Below, piece by piece: positions 17,725 to 27,798 of a stretch of DNA of 27,939 bases. Below the pieces are notes generated by a model. It ran no database searches and had not been told where the DNA came from. It worked only from the letters and a program-made list of their open reading frames with translations. The stretch is taken from contig NZ_JACCBZ010000017.1 of NCBI RefSeq assembly GCF_013408825.1, positions 1-27,939 on the forward strand. The letters run 5' to 3'. How positions within the stretch are numbered: the first letter of the stretch is position 1; each line of letters opens with the position of its first letter. The stretch is from Mucilaginibacter tundrae (GTDB lineage: Bacteria > Bacteroidota > Bacteroidia > Sphingobacteriales > Sphingobacteriaceae). Both the position numbers and the translations under genes were made by a program.

Positions 17725-18381
17725 ATGGCATATAAAGCAATAATAGCAGGCGCAAGCGGACTTATTGGCAGTAGTTTACTAACTATTTTGCTAAATGAGC
17801 CTGCTTATACTGAAATTACCGCTTTAGTTAGAAAAAAAACCGGCTTGGTTCACACAAAGTTAACCGAGATTTTAGTTGATTTTGACAATCTTGATGATTT
17901 TGCCGGAGAAATAAACGGCCATGTACTATTTTGTTGCATAGGTACAACGAAAAAGAAAACACCTGATTTAACAGATTACTATAAAATTGAGCATGATTAT
18001 CCTGTAAAGTTAGGGCAATTAGCTGCTAAAAATGGCGTTAATAAATATCATTATGTGTCGTCCATTGGGGCTGATAAAAACTCTGCAGCTTATTATGCTA
18101 AATATAAGGGTCAAACTGAATACGATTTACAGCAGCTTAATTTGCTCTCTCTCCATATTTACCGGCCATCAATACTATCAGGCGAAAGGAAAGAGCACAG
18201 GCCGCTGGAAAAATTTGTAAACGGGTTAATGTATATTATCAACCCGCTACTAATCGGCAGCCTTAAAAAGTACAGGAGTATACCTGCAAAAACCGTGGCA
18301 ATGGCCATGTACAAACAATCAATTAATAATGACGAGGGTGTTTTTGTACATCCATCTGATCAAATAAAACAAATAGCGTGA
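17725..18381 (+). CDS. NAD(P)-binding SDR-like protein (HTATIP2/YbjT-like)
   Basis: The start is taken at the ATG at 17725 (MAYKAIIAGASGLIGSS); an in-frame TTG 21 bases upstream falls in the -7 box. The product has 218 residues. The Rossmann glycine motif GASGLIGSSL lies at the N-terminus, followed by a typical atypical-SDR pattern with HYVSSIGADKNSAAYYAKYKGQTE, which supplies a Ser-x-Y/K-type active-site region. The C-terminal part is short, as in HTATIP2-like proteins rather than full epimerases. The substrate is unknown. The stop overlaps the start of the ABC-F gene (GTGA), so the two are probably co-translated. Confidence 0.82.
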   Translation: MAYKAIIAGASGLIGSSLLTILLNEPAYTEITALVRKKTGLVHTKLTEILVDFDNLDDFAGEINGHVLFCCIGTTKKKTPDLTDYYKIEHDYPVKLGQLAAKNGVNKYHYVSSIGADKNSAAYYAKYKGQTEYDLQQLNLLSLHIYRPSILSGERKEHRPLEKFVNGLMYIINPLLIGSLKKYRSIPAKTVAMAMYKQSINNDEGVFVHPSDQIKQIA

Positions 18382-20243
18382 GCACTTATATTTCTGCCGA
18401 AAATCTCGGCCATTCTTTTCATGATAAATGGTTGTTTAAAAATGTAACCATTGGCATCAACCGTGGTCGCCGTGTGGCCCTGGTCGGCATCAACGGCGCG
18501 GGTAAATCAACCCTTTTAAAATTACTAGCCGGTGAATTTTTACCTACCGAAGGCAAGGTTGTGCGTAGCCGCGATCTCCGCTTAGGATATCTGGAGCAAG
18601 ACCCACATTTTAAAAACGCGGTTACCATAAGCGATTACATTTTTCATGCAGATAACGTGCAGCAGCAAGCTATCCGCAAATATGAAGAGCTTTTAGAAAA
18701 TGACCCTATTAATGCCAAAGCAATTGATAAGGCGATGGAAGAATTGGGCGATGTTGATGCCTGGGAGTATGAATACAAGATCAAGACAATTTTAGGCAGA
18801 TTGGATATTCATCATTTAAACCAGCATATTGATACCTTATCGGGTGGACAAAAAAAGCGACTGGCCTTAGCACGGTTGCTTATTGAAGATCCTGATATTT
18901 ATGTTTTGGATGAGCCTACCAATCACCTGGATATTGATACTATTGAGTGGTTAGAGAAGCTATTAACTGATGGTGCAAAAACTATACTGATGGTTACGCA
19001 TGATAGGTATTTTCTGGATAATGTATGTAATGAGATATTAGAGATTGACCGAGGCAAGATGATCCCTTACATTGGCAACTATGGTTACTATTTAGAAAAG
19101 AAAGCTGAACGCGAAGCTGTAGATGAACTACAATTCCATAAAAATTCCAACCTTTTAAAGAAAGAATTGGAGTGGATGCGCCGCCAACCTCAAGCTCGTG
19201 GTACAAAATCAAAAGCCCGCATAGATGCTTATTATGATCTTGAAGACAAAACCAAAGGCGGTGGCCCTAAAGAAAAGGTTGAATTAAGCGTTAAAACCGC
19301 TCGCCAGGGTAATAAGATCATGGAATTACACCATGTCAACAAAGCTTTTAATGGCATTACTTATACTGATAATTTCAGTTACGTATTCAAAAAAGGGGAT
19401 CGTATTGGCTTGGCCGGCAAAAACGGAAGTGGTAAATCCACCCTGCTGAATATGATAACAAATGGCTTGCAGCCAGATTCGGGCACGATTGAGCGTGGCG
19501 AAACAACCGTAATGGGTTATTTTCATCAATCTGGAATTACCTTTAAGGAAGATGAACGAGTAATTGATGTGGTAAAAAACGTAGCAGAGTTTATTACAAT
19601 GGCTGATGGTAAAACCATTTCAGCTTCTGCACTCCTTACGCTGTTCTTATTCCCTCCTGCTAAACAGTACGGCTTTATAGCCAACCTAAGTGGTGGCGAA
19701 AAGAAACGCCTGCAGTTAATGAGTATCCTGATGAAGAATCCAAACTTCTTGATACTGGATGAGCCCACCAATGATTTAGATATTGATACCTTAAACGTGC
19801 TGGAGGAATTTTTAACCAACTATGGTGGCGTATTAATGATGGTATCACACGATAGGTATTTATTGGATAAATTAACCGATCAGTTGTTTATTGTAGAAGA
19901 AAAGGGTCATGTTAGAATATACAATGGCAACTATTCTTCATACAGAATTGAACAGGAAGAAGCCAGAAAACAAAAGCTGAACCCTACTCCTGTCGCTACA
20001 ACAACCAACACCCAACCTAAAAAAAGCAAATTAAGCTTTAAGGAAACTAAGGAACTTGAAACACTTGAAGCGGAAATCGCGTCACTTGAAACCCAAATTA
20101 AAGACTGCAATAATCAGTTAAATGCTGTTGGAATTGATACTCATTTATTGAATGAGTTGATTGATAAATCGGCAACATTAAGCATTGAACTTGATGAAAA
20201 AAGCTTAAGGTGGCTTGAATTAACCGAGTTAAAGGAAATGTAA
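18378..20243 (+). CDS. ABC-F family ATPase (Uup-like)
   Basis: A soluble protein with two ABC domains and no membrane segment, 621 residues, belonging to the ABC-F family that acts on ribosomes or nucleic acid. Domain 1: Walker A GINGAGKS (37-44), signature LSGGQKKRLALARLL, Walker B VLDEPTNHLDI. The linker with basic helices (KKELEWMRRQPQARGTKSKA) sits at about 255-280. Domain 2: Walker A GKNGSGKS (about 349), signature LSGGEKKRLQLM, Walker B LILDEPTNDLDI. The C-terminal 80 residues form a coiled coil (ETLEAEIASLETQIKDCNNQ), as in Uup. The start is GTG at 18378, overlapping the previous stop. Resistance function is not indicated; no antibiotic-resistance ABC-F type is recognised. Confidence 0.92.
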   Translation: MSTYISAENLGHSFHDKWLFKNVTIGINRGRRVALVGINGAGKSTLLKLLAGEFLPTEGKVVRSRDLRLGYLEQDPHFKNAVTISDYIFHADNVQQQAIRKYEELLENDPINAKAIDKAMEELGDVDAWEYEYKIKTILGRLDIHHLNQHIDTLSGGQKKRLALARLLIEDPDIYVLDEPTNHLDIDTIEWLEKLLTDGAKTILMVTHDRYFLDNVCNEILEIDRGKMIPYIGNYGYYLEKKAEREAVDELQFHKNSNLLKKELEWMRRQPQARGTKSKARIDAYYDLEDKTKGGGPKEKVELSVKTARQGNKIMELHHVNKAFNGITYTDNFSYVFKKGDRIGLAGKNGSGKSTLLNMITNGLQPDSGTIERGETTVMGYFHQSGITFKEDERVIDVVKNVAEFITMADGKTISASALLTLFLFPPAKQYGFIANLSGGEKKRLQLMSILMKNPNFLILDEPTNDLDIDTLNVLEEFLTNYGGVLMMVSHDRYLLDKLTDQLFIVEEKGHVRIYNGNYSSYRIEQEEARKQKLNPTPVATTTNTQPKKSKLSFKETKELETLEAEIASLETQIKDCNNQLNAVGIDTHLLNELIDKSATLSIELDEKSLRWLELTELKEM

Positions 20244-20244
20244 C

Positions 20245-20499
20245 ATGAAGGAATCGGATATAATAGCGACCATAGGTGTTGTGATTTTATTGATCGCATT
20301 CCTATTAAATTTATATAAAAAGCTGTCGGCAAATAGTATTTCCTATACTTTAATGAATTTTATAGGCGCTGCTACTTGTGGCTATTCATCCTTTTTAATA
20401 AAATTTTATCCCTTTGTTGTACTGGAAACCATTTGGGCGCTATTTGCATTAGCATCCTTAATCAAGGTTTCACGTGGAACATCGAAAATTGAACAATAA
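20245..20499 (+). CDS. CBU_0592-like small membrane protein
   Basis: An 84-residue protein of three hydrophobic helices: about 8-23 (IATIGVVILLIAFLLN), 33-50 (TLMNFIGAATCGYSSFL) and 54-73 (FYPFVVLETIWALFALASL). The Leu-rich first helix, the conserved NSISYTLMNFIGA stretch and the ETIWALFAL ending match the CBU_0592-like family (function unknown). It starts 1 base after the ABC-F stop, so it is cotranscribed with it. Its last codons contain the first parS-like site (20466-20481), so the coding sequence is read through a DNA-binding site. Confidence 0.8.
   Translation: MKESDIIATIGVVILLIAFLLNLYKKLSANSISYTLMNFIGAATCGYSSFLIKFYPFVVLETIWALFALASLIKVSRGTSKIEQ
20466..20481. other. parS: parS-like ParB binding site 1
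   Basis: GGTTTCACGTGGAACA agrees at 14 of 16 positions with the widely conserved chromosomal parS TGTTTCACGTGAAACA and retains the CACGTG core. It lies inside the 3' end of the small membrane protein gene. The second site lies 40 bp downstream, centre to centre. Confidence 0.75.
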
Positions 20500-20504
20500 A
20501 AATA

Positions 20505-20522
20505 ACGTTCCACGTGGAACGT
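20505..20522. other. parS: parS-like ParB binding site 2, perfect palindrome
   Basis: ACGTTCCACGTGGAACGT is a perfect 18-bp palindrome. Its inner 14 bases GTTCCACGTGGAAC are identical to the core of the parS variant TGTTCCACGTGGAACA. It is in the intergenic gap immediately upstream of mnmG. A paired arrangement with site 1 is typical of origin-proximal ParB loading. Confidence 0.8.
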
Positions 20523-20547
20523 GCTTAATAATTTAATGGTTTAAGCC

Positions 20548-22410
20548 ATGTTTAAGAAATATAATGTAATAGTTGTAGGCGCTGGGCATGCTGGCTGTGA
20601 AGCCGCTGCTGCCGCCGCCAACCTGGGGTCGTCTGTTCTATTAGTTACCATGAATATGGGAACCATAGCGCAAATGAGCTGTAACCCGGCAATGGGCGGT
20701 GTTGCTAAAGGACAAATTGTAAGAGAGATTGATGCTATGGGTGGATATTCCGGTATAATAACCGATAAAACATCCTTGCAATTCCGCATGCTAAACAAAT
20801 CTAAAGGCCCCGCTATGTGGAGCCCGCGTGCCCAAAGCGACCGTGCGCGGTTCGCTGAAGAGTGGCGCTTGGCATTGGAAAGAACCCCTAATGTAGATTT
20901 TTGGCAGGACATGGTAAGCTCGCTATTGGTAAAAAATGGAACCGTTTGCGGCGTGCGCACCTCAATTGGTGTAGAGATTGAAGCCGATGCGGTTATATTA
21001 ACCAATGGGACTTTCCTTAATGGTGTTATCCATATTGGCGAGAAGCGCTTTGGTGGTGGCCGTTCTGCAGAACGCGCAGCTACCGGTATAACTGAGCAGT
21101 TAATCGATTTAGGATTTGAATCAGGCCGAATGAAGACAGGCACACCTCCACGTGTTGATGGCCGGAGCTTGAACTATTCTTTAATGGAAGAACAATGGGG
21201 CGATGAAGAAAGAGGTTGTTTTTCTTATACCGATGTTGAACTTTCAAACGATCAGCGTTGTTGTTGGATTACCTATACTAATACAAAAGTTCACGAAACC
21301 CTAAAGGAAGGCTTTGAAAAATCTCCTATGTTCACCGGCAGGATCAAAGGCTTAGGCCCAAGATATTGCCCATCTATCGAAGATAAAATAAATCGCTTTG
21401 CCGAACGCGACCGCCACCAGATTTTTGTTGAACCTGAAGGATGGAATACTTGTGAGATCTACGTAAATGGTTTTTCAACCTCATTACCTGAGGATATTCA
21501 ATACAAGGCATTAATACAGATCCCGGGGTTTGAGACAGTAAAAATGTTCCGCCCGGGCTATGCGATAGAATACGATTACTTCCCACCTACCCAATTAGGT
21601 TTGACATTAGAAACTAAGCAGATCAGCAATCTTTATTTCGCAGGTCAAATTAATGGAACAACCGGTTATGAAGAAGCGGCCTCACAAGGTTTTATTGCCG
21701 GTATAAACGCACATCAAAAACTAAATGATAAACATGAGTTGATCTTAAAAAGATCAGAGTCATATATTGGCGTATTGATTGACGATTTGGTAACTAAGGG
21801 TACAGAAGAGCCATATCGTATGTTTACCTCACGGGCCGAGCATCGTTTATTGCTTCGCCAGGATAATGCCGATATAAGGTTAAGTCCTATTGGTCATGAA
21901 CTGGGTTTAATAAAAGATGCACGTTTAGATAAAGTAAATGCCAAAATTAAAAATTCAGACGATATCGTCGCTTATACCAAATCAAGGTCGCTTAACCCCG
22001 AACATGTAAATGCTTTGTTAGAATCGTTAGAAACTAGCACGATATCACAAGGCGCGAAATTGTTCGCATTATTAAGCAGACCTCAAGTTAATTTTAACGA
22101 CTTGAGAAAAGCCGACAATGGATTGGATGAATTACTATCGGCCTACGATAAAGAAACTATTGAGCAGGCTGAAATAAAAATCAAATACGAGAGTTATTTT
22201 GAAAAGGAATTGGATATTGTTGAGCGCATGAAAAAAATGGAAGACCGGGAGATCAATACCGAATTTAATTATCATAGCCTGGGATCACTTTCAAAAGAAG
22301 CCCGTGAAAAGCTAATGAAAATTAAACCTCGTACTTTAGGCCAGGCTTCTCGCATTTCAGGTGTTTCTCCGTCTGATATCTCGGTTATTATGGTTCATAT
22401 GTCAAAATAA
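20548..22410 (+). CDS. mnmG: tRNA uridine-5-carboxymethylaminomethyl modification enzyme MnmG (GidA)
   Basis: An FAD-dependent enzyme that, with MnmE, installs the 5-carboxymethylaminomethyl group at wobble U34 in tRNAs. The 620-residue length is standard. The FAD site GAGHAGCE lies at 11-18, followed by the hallmark [20 protein letters not shown], the [10 protein letters not shown] region, and [18 protein letters not shown]. The C-terminal part, including [17 protein letters not shown] and [20 protein letters not shown], binds MnmE and tRNA. MnmE is not adjacent. The parS sites directly upstream and the classical location of gidA near replication origins suggest the chromosome origin is close. 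It is preceded by a 48-bp gap and has no evident -7 box. Confidence 0.98.
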
Positions 22411-26397: not shown

Positions 26398-26805
26398 ATA
26401 CGTGCTATAATATGTGTAAAATTAGTGCTTATGTTAGTAATAGGCTCTAAAGATGTTAATTTTGTGTAAGTAAATATTTAATAAATAAACAGAACGTTGA
26501 TAAGTGGCTGTTTAATGACAAAATGAGTTAAACTTTGAGCTACTTATGAGATCAATATTCGTAGTAACTAACATTTAATTAGCCCATGAAATATTAACAA
26601 AAGTGTTTTGATAAAATTAGTTGTTACTGACATGCTATTATAAATCAACTCAATATAAATTTATAACTCATAAAATAGTGTTGATAAAATATTAAAAACA
26701 ACTTTTACCGTAATTAGTTCAACAACTTTTTAACATAACTAACACCTTAATAACAACTGTTTCTTTATATATATATAAACTAATTATTATTAATTGATTT
26801 GTGGA
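26398..26805. other. AT-rich intergenic region between nadB and nadA, candidate origin or control region
   Basis: There are 408 bases without a gene. DnaA-box-like motifs on the minus strand include TTTTACACA (26413-26421, fits TTWTNCACA) and TTATCAACA (26679-26687, one mismatch from TTATCCACA). A weaker TTATCAACG occurs near 26495. A second word, (A/G)TTAGT(T/G/A), recurs on both strands at roughly 26422, 26433, 26566, 26617, 26713, 26737 and 26779. An AT tract with TATATATATATA is at about 26767-26778. The region may be oriC, a divergent nad promoter-operator region, or both. The sequence alone does not decide. Confidence 0.35.
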
Positions 26806-27798
26806 ATGGATACCTTAGAGGAAATAAATTTGAAAGGTTTTGTTGACGAATACATAGACCCAACCCTTGACCTTTTTGATGAAATTGAAAAACTTAAAAA
26901 AGAAAAAAATGCTGTCATACTTGCTCACTACTACCAGGAAGGCGATATCCAGGATGTTGCGGATTATATCGGAGATAGCCTCGGATTATCACAACAAGCC
27001 GCGAAAACAGACGCCGACATTATTGTATTTGCCGGTGTACACTTCATGGCCGAAACAGCAAAGATCCTATCCCCAAACAAGAAGGTCCTATTACCGGATT
27101 TAAAGGCAGGATGTTCATTAGCAGATAGTTGTCCGCCACATTTGTTCAGGAAATTTAAGGAAAATTACCCTGATCACCTGGTGATAACTTATGTTAACTG
27201 CACAGCTGAACTAAAGGCTTTAAGCGATATAGTTTGCACATCGAGCAATGCGGTGCAAATTGTGGAAAGCTTACCAGTAGACCAAAAAATAATATTCGGT
27301 CCTGATAAAAATTTGGGTGCTTATGTGGCTAAAAAAACAGGAAGGGATTTGGTTTTATGGAATGGTGCTTGTATGGTTCACGAGATATTCTCGAGAGAGA
27401 AAATTACCAAACTGAAAGAACGTTATCCAAATGCAAAACTATTAGCTCACCCTGAATGTGAGGATGTTATTTTGCAAATGGCTGATTATGTAGGTTCAAC
27501 AACAGGTATATTGAAATATGCTACTAACAACCCCGCAAAGGAATTTATTGTAGCAACAGAAGCAGGTATTTTACACCAGATGCAAAAGGATAATCCTGAT
27601 AAGGTATTTATACCCGCACCTCCGAATAATGATTGCGCATGTAACGATTGTCCGCATATGAAACGTAACACGCTTGAAAAATTATACCTGTGTTTAAAAA
27701 ATGAATCACCGGAAATAGAAGTTCCTCAGCATATAATTGAAAGGGCTGTAAAACCGATTGAACGAATGCTGGAAATATCGGCACAATTAGGATTATAA
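26806..27798 (+). CDS. nadA: Quinolinate synthase A
   Basis: A [4Fe-4S] enzyme that condenses iminoaspartate (from NadB) with dihydroxyacetone phosphate to quinolinate. The ATG at 26806 ([10 protein letters not shown]) is chosen over an in-frame TTG 12 bases upstream; the product has 330 residues. Cluster ligands are expected at Cys103 (AGCSLADSC), Cys189 (WNGACMVHE) and Cys282 (CACNDCPHM), spaced as in the E. coli enzyme. Substrate residues lie in ILAHYYQ (38-44) and AHPEC (214-218). A TTGATTTG box at 26794-26801 is one base off the -7 consensus and would give a near-leaderless transcript. The gene is divergent from nadB and terminated at 27809-27843. Confidence 0.96.

Follow-up and report, generated by a model that had tools for sequence, protein, structure and literature searches.

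The closest described counterparts of the locus analysed here are the parS sites of Bacillus subtilis, bound by Spo0J, and of Caulobacter, bound by ParB. The available parts of the relevant sources give the parS consensus as TGTTTCACGTGAAACA (PMC7383237) and the B. subtilis site as TGTTNCACGTGAAACA (PMC7022226). A related palindrome, NBS, is bound by the ParB paralogue Noc; the available text of PMC7383237 gives its consensus as TATTTCCCGGGAAATA and places Q and R in Noc at the positions of Caulobacter ParB residues 173 and 201. Closer in phylogeny, a Hi-C study of 12 gut bacteria, including two Bacteroidetes, located the origin from parS clusters in combination with GC skew and warned that dnaA is not always an origin marker; the accessible portion of that account does not mention mnmG, and it states that no known condensin was found in the two Bacteroidetes (PMC10197239). 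In two Flavobacteriaceae genome papers, oriC was predicted at mnmG by Ori-Finder in agreement with GC skew, and the sections available draw no link to parS (PMC11278836, PMC12843772). In the first of these genomes dnaA did not fit the skew, and a figure legend of the same paper calls mnmG ter, contradicting its own text (PMC11278836, as far as its available text goes). Two further cases, each from a partially available source, are at odds with a rule for the entire phylum. In Melioribacter roseus the origin is reported to fall between dnaA and dnaN (PMC3534657), and in Blattabacterium Bge, where gidA, parA and dnaA are missing, the skew places it within dapB (PMC2768785). It has also been proposed that gidA, gidB, parA and parB belonged to an ancestral origin gene cluster (PMC2099444, available excerpt). 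Our literature search found no phylum-wide account of a tie between parS and mnmG, although the main parS survey (Livny 2007) may contain parts of one. The first-pass annotation of this DNA had called centromere placement in the phylum little described, which is partly right: no phylum-wide account was found in our search, and single cases are covered by the available portions of PMC10197239, PMC11278836 and PMC12843772.

The window analysed is an entire 27.9 kb contig (C17) of Mucilaginibacter tundrae, whose genome assembly comprises 24 contigs and 4.83 Mb. It contains two palindromes to which no strand was assigned. The distal site, GGTTTCACGTGGAACA (20466..20481), matches TGTTTCACGTGAAACA at all but 2 of its 16 positions, and the proximal site is a perfect 18-bp palindrome, ACGTTCCACGTGGAACGT (20505..20522), ending 25 bp 5' of the mnmG start codon. 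The two 16-mers start at 20466 and 20506, giving a spacing of 40 bp. Compared with the parS form, a 16-bp palindrome near TGTTNCACGTGNAACA, the sites have 1 and 2 mismatches over 16 bp and both keep the invariant GTTNCACGTGNAAC core intact. Three plus-strand genes surround them. An ABC-F family ATPase gene (18378..20243; open reading frame and family match) is the upstream neighbour, and is followed by a gene for an 84-aa CBU_0592 family membrane protein (20245..20499; open reading frame, NF047864, 41.8 bits against a cut-off of 25), for which no Pfam family was found at an E value of 0.001. The distal site lies in frame within the last codons of this gene, where it is read as V-S-R-G-T. Downstream is mnmG (gidA; 20548..22410; open reading frame, TIGR00136, 825 bits against a cut-off of 525), the gene to which the sites are linked in relatives. 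The first-pass annotation had reported two palindromes 40 bp apart at these coordinates, with the CACGTG-centred core retained and the distal site matching at 14 of 16 positions, had put them just upstream of mnmG, and had embedded the distal one in the 3' coding end of a CBU_0592-like gene; all of this was reproduced here.

Within the window, a loose motif (up to 3 mismatches) occurs twice against 1.4 expected, which is not significant. Across the 4,834,404-base genome, exact GTTNCACGTGNAAC has two copies, both at this locus, against a chance expectation from base composition of 0.21 per genome and about 1e-6 for pairs within 100 bp; a backward-read control motif occurs once. Allowing one mismatch gives 12 places, the 10 additional ones all on other contigs, compared with 5 for the backward control. 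Therefore only the exact pair stands out, and places with a single mismatch are largely background. The exact sites are both rare and clustered, as chromosomal parS should be: the 4.83 Mb genome has two, with a spacing of 40 bp. From this and the evidence below, we consider it very probable that the two palindromes are a chromosomal parS (centromere) that would load ParB for ParA-driven segregation of the origin.

The sites are widely conserved. Among the matches listed, exact matches were found in 58 of 60 relatives (143 exact sites in all, where the backward control gave 14), in 57 of 60 genomes from across the phylum and in 264 of 296 genomes of the class. The 32 class genomes without an exact match among those listed include all seven of one family (f60) and all three of another (f81). 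Among the matches listed for the class set, G140 has the highest count, with 12 exact sites in 3.0 Mb.

The association with mnmG was examined from both directions. We took one locus per genome, at the first match among the matches listed, and found MnmG within 1.5 kb of that site at 26 of 30 loci. One of the four misses belongs to a genome (G038) with a canonical pair at both ends of mnmG on another contig. A second set of 29 loci, likewise one per genome, shared 3 with the first, and MnmG lies beside the first listed site in 24 of the 26 new ones. In the opposite direction, mnmG-anchored loci (the best 80 of 592) have an exact site within 5 kb in 54 cases, with sites upstream in 51 and downstream in 23, compared with 0 of these 80 for a reversed control motif. 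In another 9 of the best 80 loci, those of Runella, Larkinella, Dyadobacter and Fibrivirga among them, a site 33–110 bp upstream departs from the 16-mer at no more than 2 positions, and 17 loci have neither an exact site nor such an upstream site; two loci with mnmG at a contig edge (L115 and L126) were scored as misses. Placement is tight. Across the same best 80 of 592 loci, 117 of 142 exact sites fall within 300 bp of an mnmG end, sites bracket the gene within 400 bp on both sides in 19, and 21 of 40 spacings between neighbouring upstream sites measure 36–47 bp, a range that includes the 40 bp of the window. Among these best 80 loci, the best named matches of the window MnmG are Mucilaginibacter and Pedobacter, and the eight best rows from these genera are 81–88% identical over the full length, apart from one row at 77%. 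The ABC-F gene is retained beside the sites in all 10 same-genus loci within the motif-chosen set of 30.

A 1.31 Mb scaffold of Pedobacter sp. BS3 (NZ_VTRT01000001.1) is labelled 'unlocalized plasmid', and is probably chromosomal because it carries mnmG and a parS pair. Contigs from two metagenome-assembled genomes with proteobacterial names, Azovibrio restrictus (L169) and Limnohabitans (L179), carry Bacteroidota-like mnmG and parS; these are likely to be mislabelled or mixed bins. Other genes also recur at these loci. An open reading frame that we take to be nadA-like lies at 26794–27798 of the window and recurs close to the mnmG-parS region in distant families (L096, 16107–17096; L098, 842–1801; L099, 4618–5622). 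A methyltransferase-like open reading frame is found beside the sites in four loci (L094, 10024–10941; L096, 8137–9063; L097, 10129–11052; L098, 4547–5461). The best NCBIfam match of the L097 copy is UbiG, under the cut-off, and in two genomes (G041 and G051) an open reading frame of this type adjoins sites without mnmG nearby.

The reading of the distal site as protein is also conserved. Of 23 sequences compared, 9 have no CBU_0592-like gene, and in all 14 that have one the distal site falls in frame 0 within the final codons, encoding V-[PS]-R-[GE]-T; these 14 comprise the window, which was given, 9 relatives picked by the motif and only 4 picked by mnmG alone. A VPRGT-like C-terminal tail encoded by parS itself is thus seen at 20466–20499 of the window and in loci L034–L043, L108, L109, L111 and L116.

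To see what becomes of parS away from mnmG, 15 genomes without an exact site at mnmG were scanned, of which 10 have exact sites elsewhere and 5 have none. In 7 of the 10, exact sites lie within thrC or adjoin it (within about 130 bp). These seven are Saprospirales-type genomes with none at mnmG (loci L208–L210, L213–L215 and L221, from G060, G062, G064, G066, G067, G068 and G071), and the threonine synthase identity of thrC is given by TIGR00260 above the cut-off in all seven. The thrC-located parS of the Saprospirales-type genomes is a centromere that moved. We rejected a coupling of parS loss to ParB loss, as 5 of 6 genomes selected because they lack an exact site retain ParB. This retention means that the strict consensus is not required everywhere. 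Larkinella (L227) and Runella (L230) have no exact parS genome-wide and do have ParB, with GERRLQAS instead of GERRLRAS, and at their mnmG loci (L120 and L131) a site with an altered left half remains 45–72 bp before mnmG. It is possible that ParB and parS have changed together in these two genera.

The position of the sites relative to the origin was assessed in complete relatives. GC skew was computed from 20-kb blocks of four complete genomes of the same class (30 blocks in G026 and G011, 20 in G127 and G101), and the origin was taken from a two-arm fit with or without a correction for gene strand. The fitted origin lies 10 kb from the sites in G026, 114 kb in G011, 2–72 kb in G127 and 4–54 kb in G101 (20 samples each for the last two). 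Its distance to dnaA is 168 kb, 1043 kb, 651–821 kb and 799–929 kb in the same order, and to parB 146 kb, 1320 kb, 787–957 kb and 628–758 kb. Among the patterns that the first-pass annotation had named as speaking against its reading were sites scattered evenly over the genome and sites absent from the GC-skew minimum. The exact sites of M. tundrae are not scattered, being only two and 40 bp apart, and in the four relatives the fitted origin is 2–114 kb from the sites. By analogy with these relatives, we infer an origin-proximal position in M. tundrae as well. Within the window itself, sign changes of the GC skew track gene strand and there is no clean switch at the sites. DnaA boxes (TTATNCACA) number 3 in the window against 1.9 expected and are far apart, and the window was rejected as oriC itself for want of a DnaA-box cluster.

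Distances from the sites were also measured in eight complete or near-complete relatives. Two of them have dnaA close by, at 8 and 17 kb, the other six have it 158–1026 kb off, and in all eight parB lies at a distance of 176–1206 kb. A parAB locus adjoining the sites was accordingly rejected in 8 of 8 (at least 176 kb), as was the idea that dnaA is always far from them (within 20 kb in 2 of 8, G076 and G122). Three of the eight records begin at dnaA (G076, G079 and G101). In related bacteria, mnmG usually keeps parS beside it, but parB and the replication initiator gene are often found elsewhere.

An alternative is that the palindromes are the operator of a transcription factor controlling mnmG, or the run of ABC-F, CBU_0592-like and mnmG genes, and play no part in segregation. 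In 34 of 51 loci (from the best 80 of 592), the start of the nearest upstream site is 20–50 bp 5' of the mnmG start codon, which is a typical place for an operator. However, sites are also found 3' of mnmG in 23 of those 80 loci, and in or beside thrC in 7 of the 10 genomes with exact sites only away from mnmG, and they match the ParB consensus and lie at the skew origin in relatives. We regard an operator as very unlikely. A promoter scan of 20200–20700 gave one promoter-like match against 1.6 expected. It is more doubtful still that the proximal palindrome serves as a minus-strand intrinsic terminator. A simple scan does flag a 7-pair stem followed by TATTTTTATT on that strand (1 against 0.3 in shuffles), but the distal site is not flagged, no minus-strand gene call ends there (the sole nearby minus-strand open reading frame, 20541–21143, lies inside mnmG), and it is the palindrome itself, not a variable stem, that recurs in relatives.

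A parS site requires a ParB that can bind it. A search of the genome found a single ParB_N protein, encoded on contig C12. It is 303 aa long, with ParB_N (N-terminal), HTH_ParB (helix-turn-helix) and ParB_C (dimerisation) domains and the motifs GERRLRAS and ENIQR. With numbering transferred by motif spacing, the residues read as Caulobacter 173 and 201 are R and G, which is the parS-type combination; by the same numbering, all 17 ParBs in the comparison have R at 173, and 16 of them have G at 201. The neighbouring gene encodes a 267-aa ParA-type ATPase (AAA_31, 234.5 bits against a cut-off of 27, and also CbiA), which had no NCBIfam model at cut-off among the matches listed (25 of 28). ScpB is encoded on contig C2 and dnaA lies on contig C1. 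Judged by sequence, the genome is predicted to encode a cognate ParB with parS-type residues and its ParA partner. The chance that the sites instead bind Noc for nucleoid occlusion is close to nil: Noc is a ParB paralogue, NBS is a related palindrome and the NCBIfam Noc model TIGR04285 gives the M. tundrae ParB 232 bits, but the cut-off of that model is 315, both sites keep the parS G and A at positions 1 and 6 of the half-site where NBS has A and C (two differing bases per half-site), the residues matched by motif spacing are R and G and not Q and R, and only the one ParB_N protein was found.

The parS reading, with ParB loading as first proposed for this locus, is thus supported by the rarity and clustering of the exact sites, their conservation, the origin position in relatives, and genes for a ParA-type ATPase and for a ParB whose residues are of the parS type, and it extends by inference to binding, spreading, segregation and an origin nearby in M. 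tundrae. At each site ParB dimers would nucleate and, after loading CTP, form closed clamps that slide onto flanking DNA. ParA would then carry the origin region, coated with ParB, into opposite halves of the cell, and the SMC-ScpAB condensin may in addition be loaded by ParB. The locus would share with the parS of B. subtilis and Caulobacter the same palindrome, an origin-proximal position and the same ParB family. Unlike in those systems, parB of relatives is far from the sites (the eight genomes above), and there is one tight pair here compared with 10 listed sites in B. subtilis, 8 of them in the origin domain. It resembles the parS clusters of gut Bacteroidetes in phylum, and would do so in marking the origin and in the unreliability of dnaA as a marker, whereas the presence of ScpB in M. 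tundrae differs from what the available part of that account reports for condensins (PMC10197239).

The tie between parS and mnmG fits the idea of an ancestral origin cluster, because mnmG lies beside the sites while parAB and often dnaA do not. On this view the sites stayed with mnmG, a member of that cluster, and parAB and often dnaA are now elsewhere. A more speculative proposal, which we consider improbable, is that the tie in Bacteroidota is functional and not just a relic. ParB at mnmG, on sites overlapping its 5' region or bracketing the gene, would set its expression and so couple tRNA modification to the state of the origin region, and the in-frame VPRGT tail would be a protein end shaped by a centromere.

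As a kind of element the locus is ordinary, a known parS; its tie to mnmG is unusually clean and testable. Bacteroidota assemblies often start at dnaA, yet dnaA is at least 158 kb from the parS cluster in six of the eight relatives, and in draft genomes and metagenome bins the parS pair at mnmG can serve as a simple marker of the origin. The relocation to thrC and the degenerate sites of Runella and Larkinella provide natural experiments on centromere movement, and a first ParB ChIP-seq experiment in the family would have a defined target in the mnmG parS pair.
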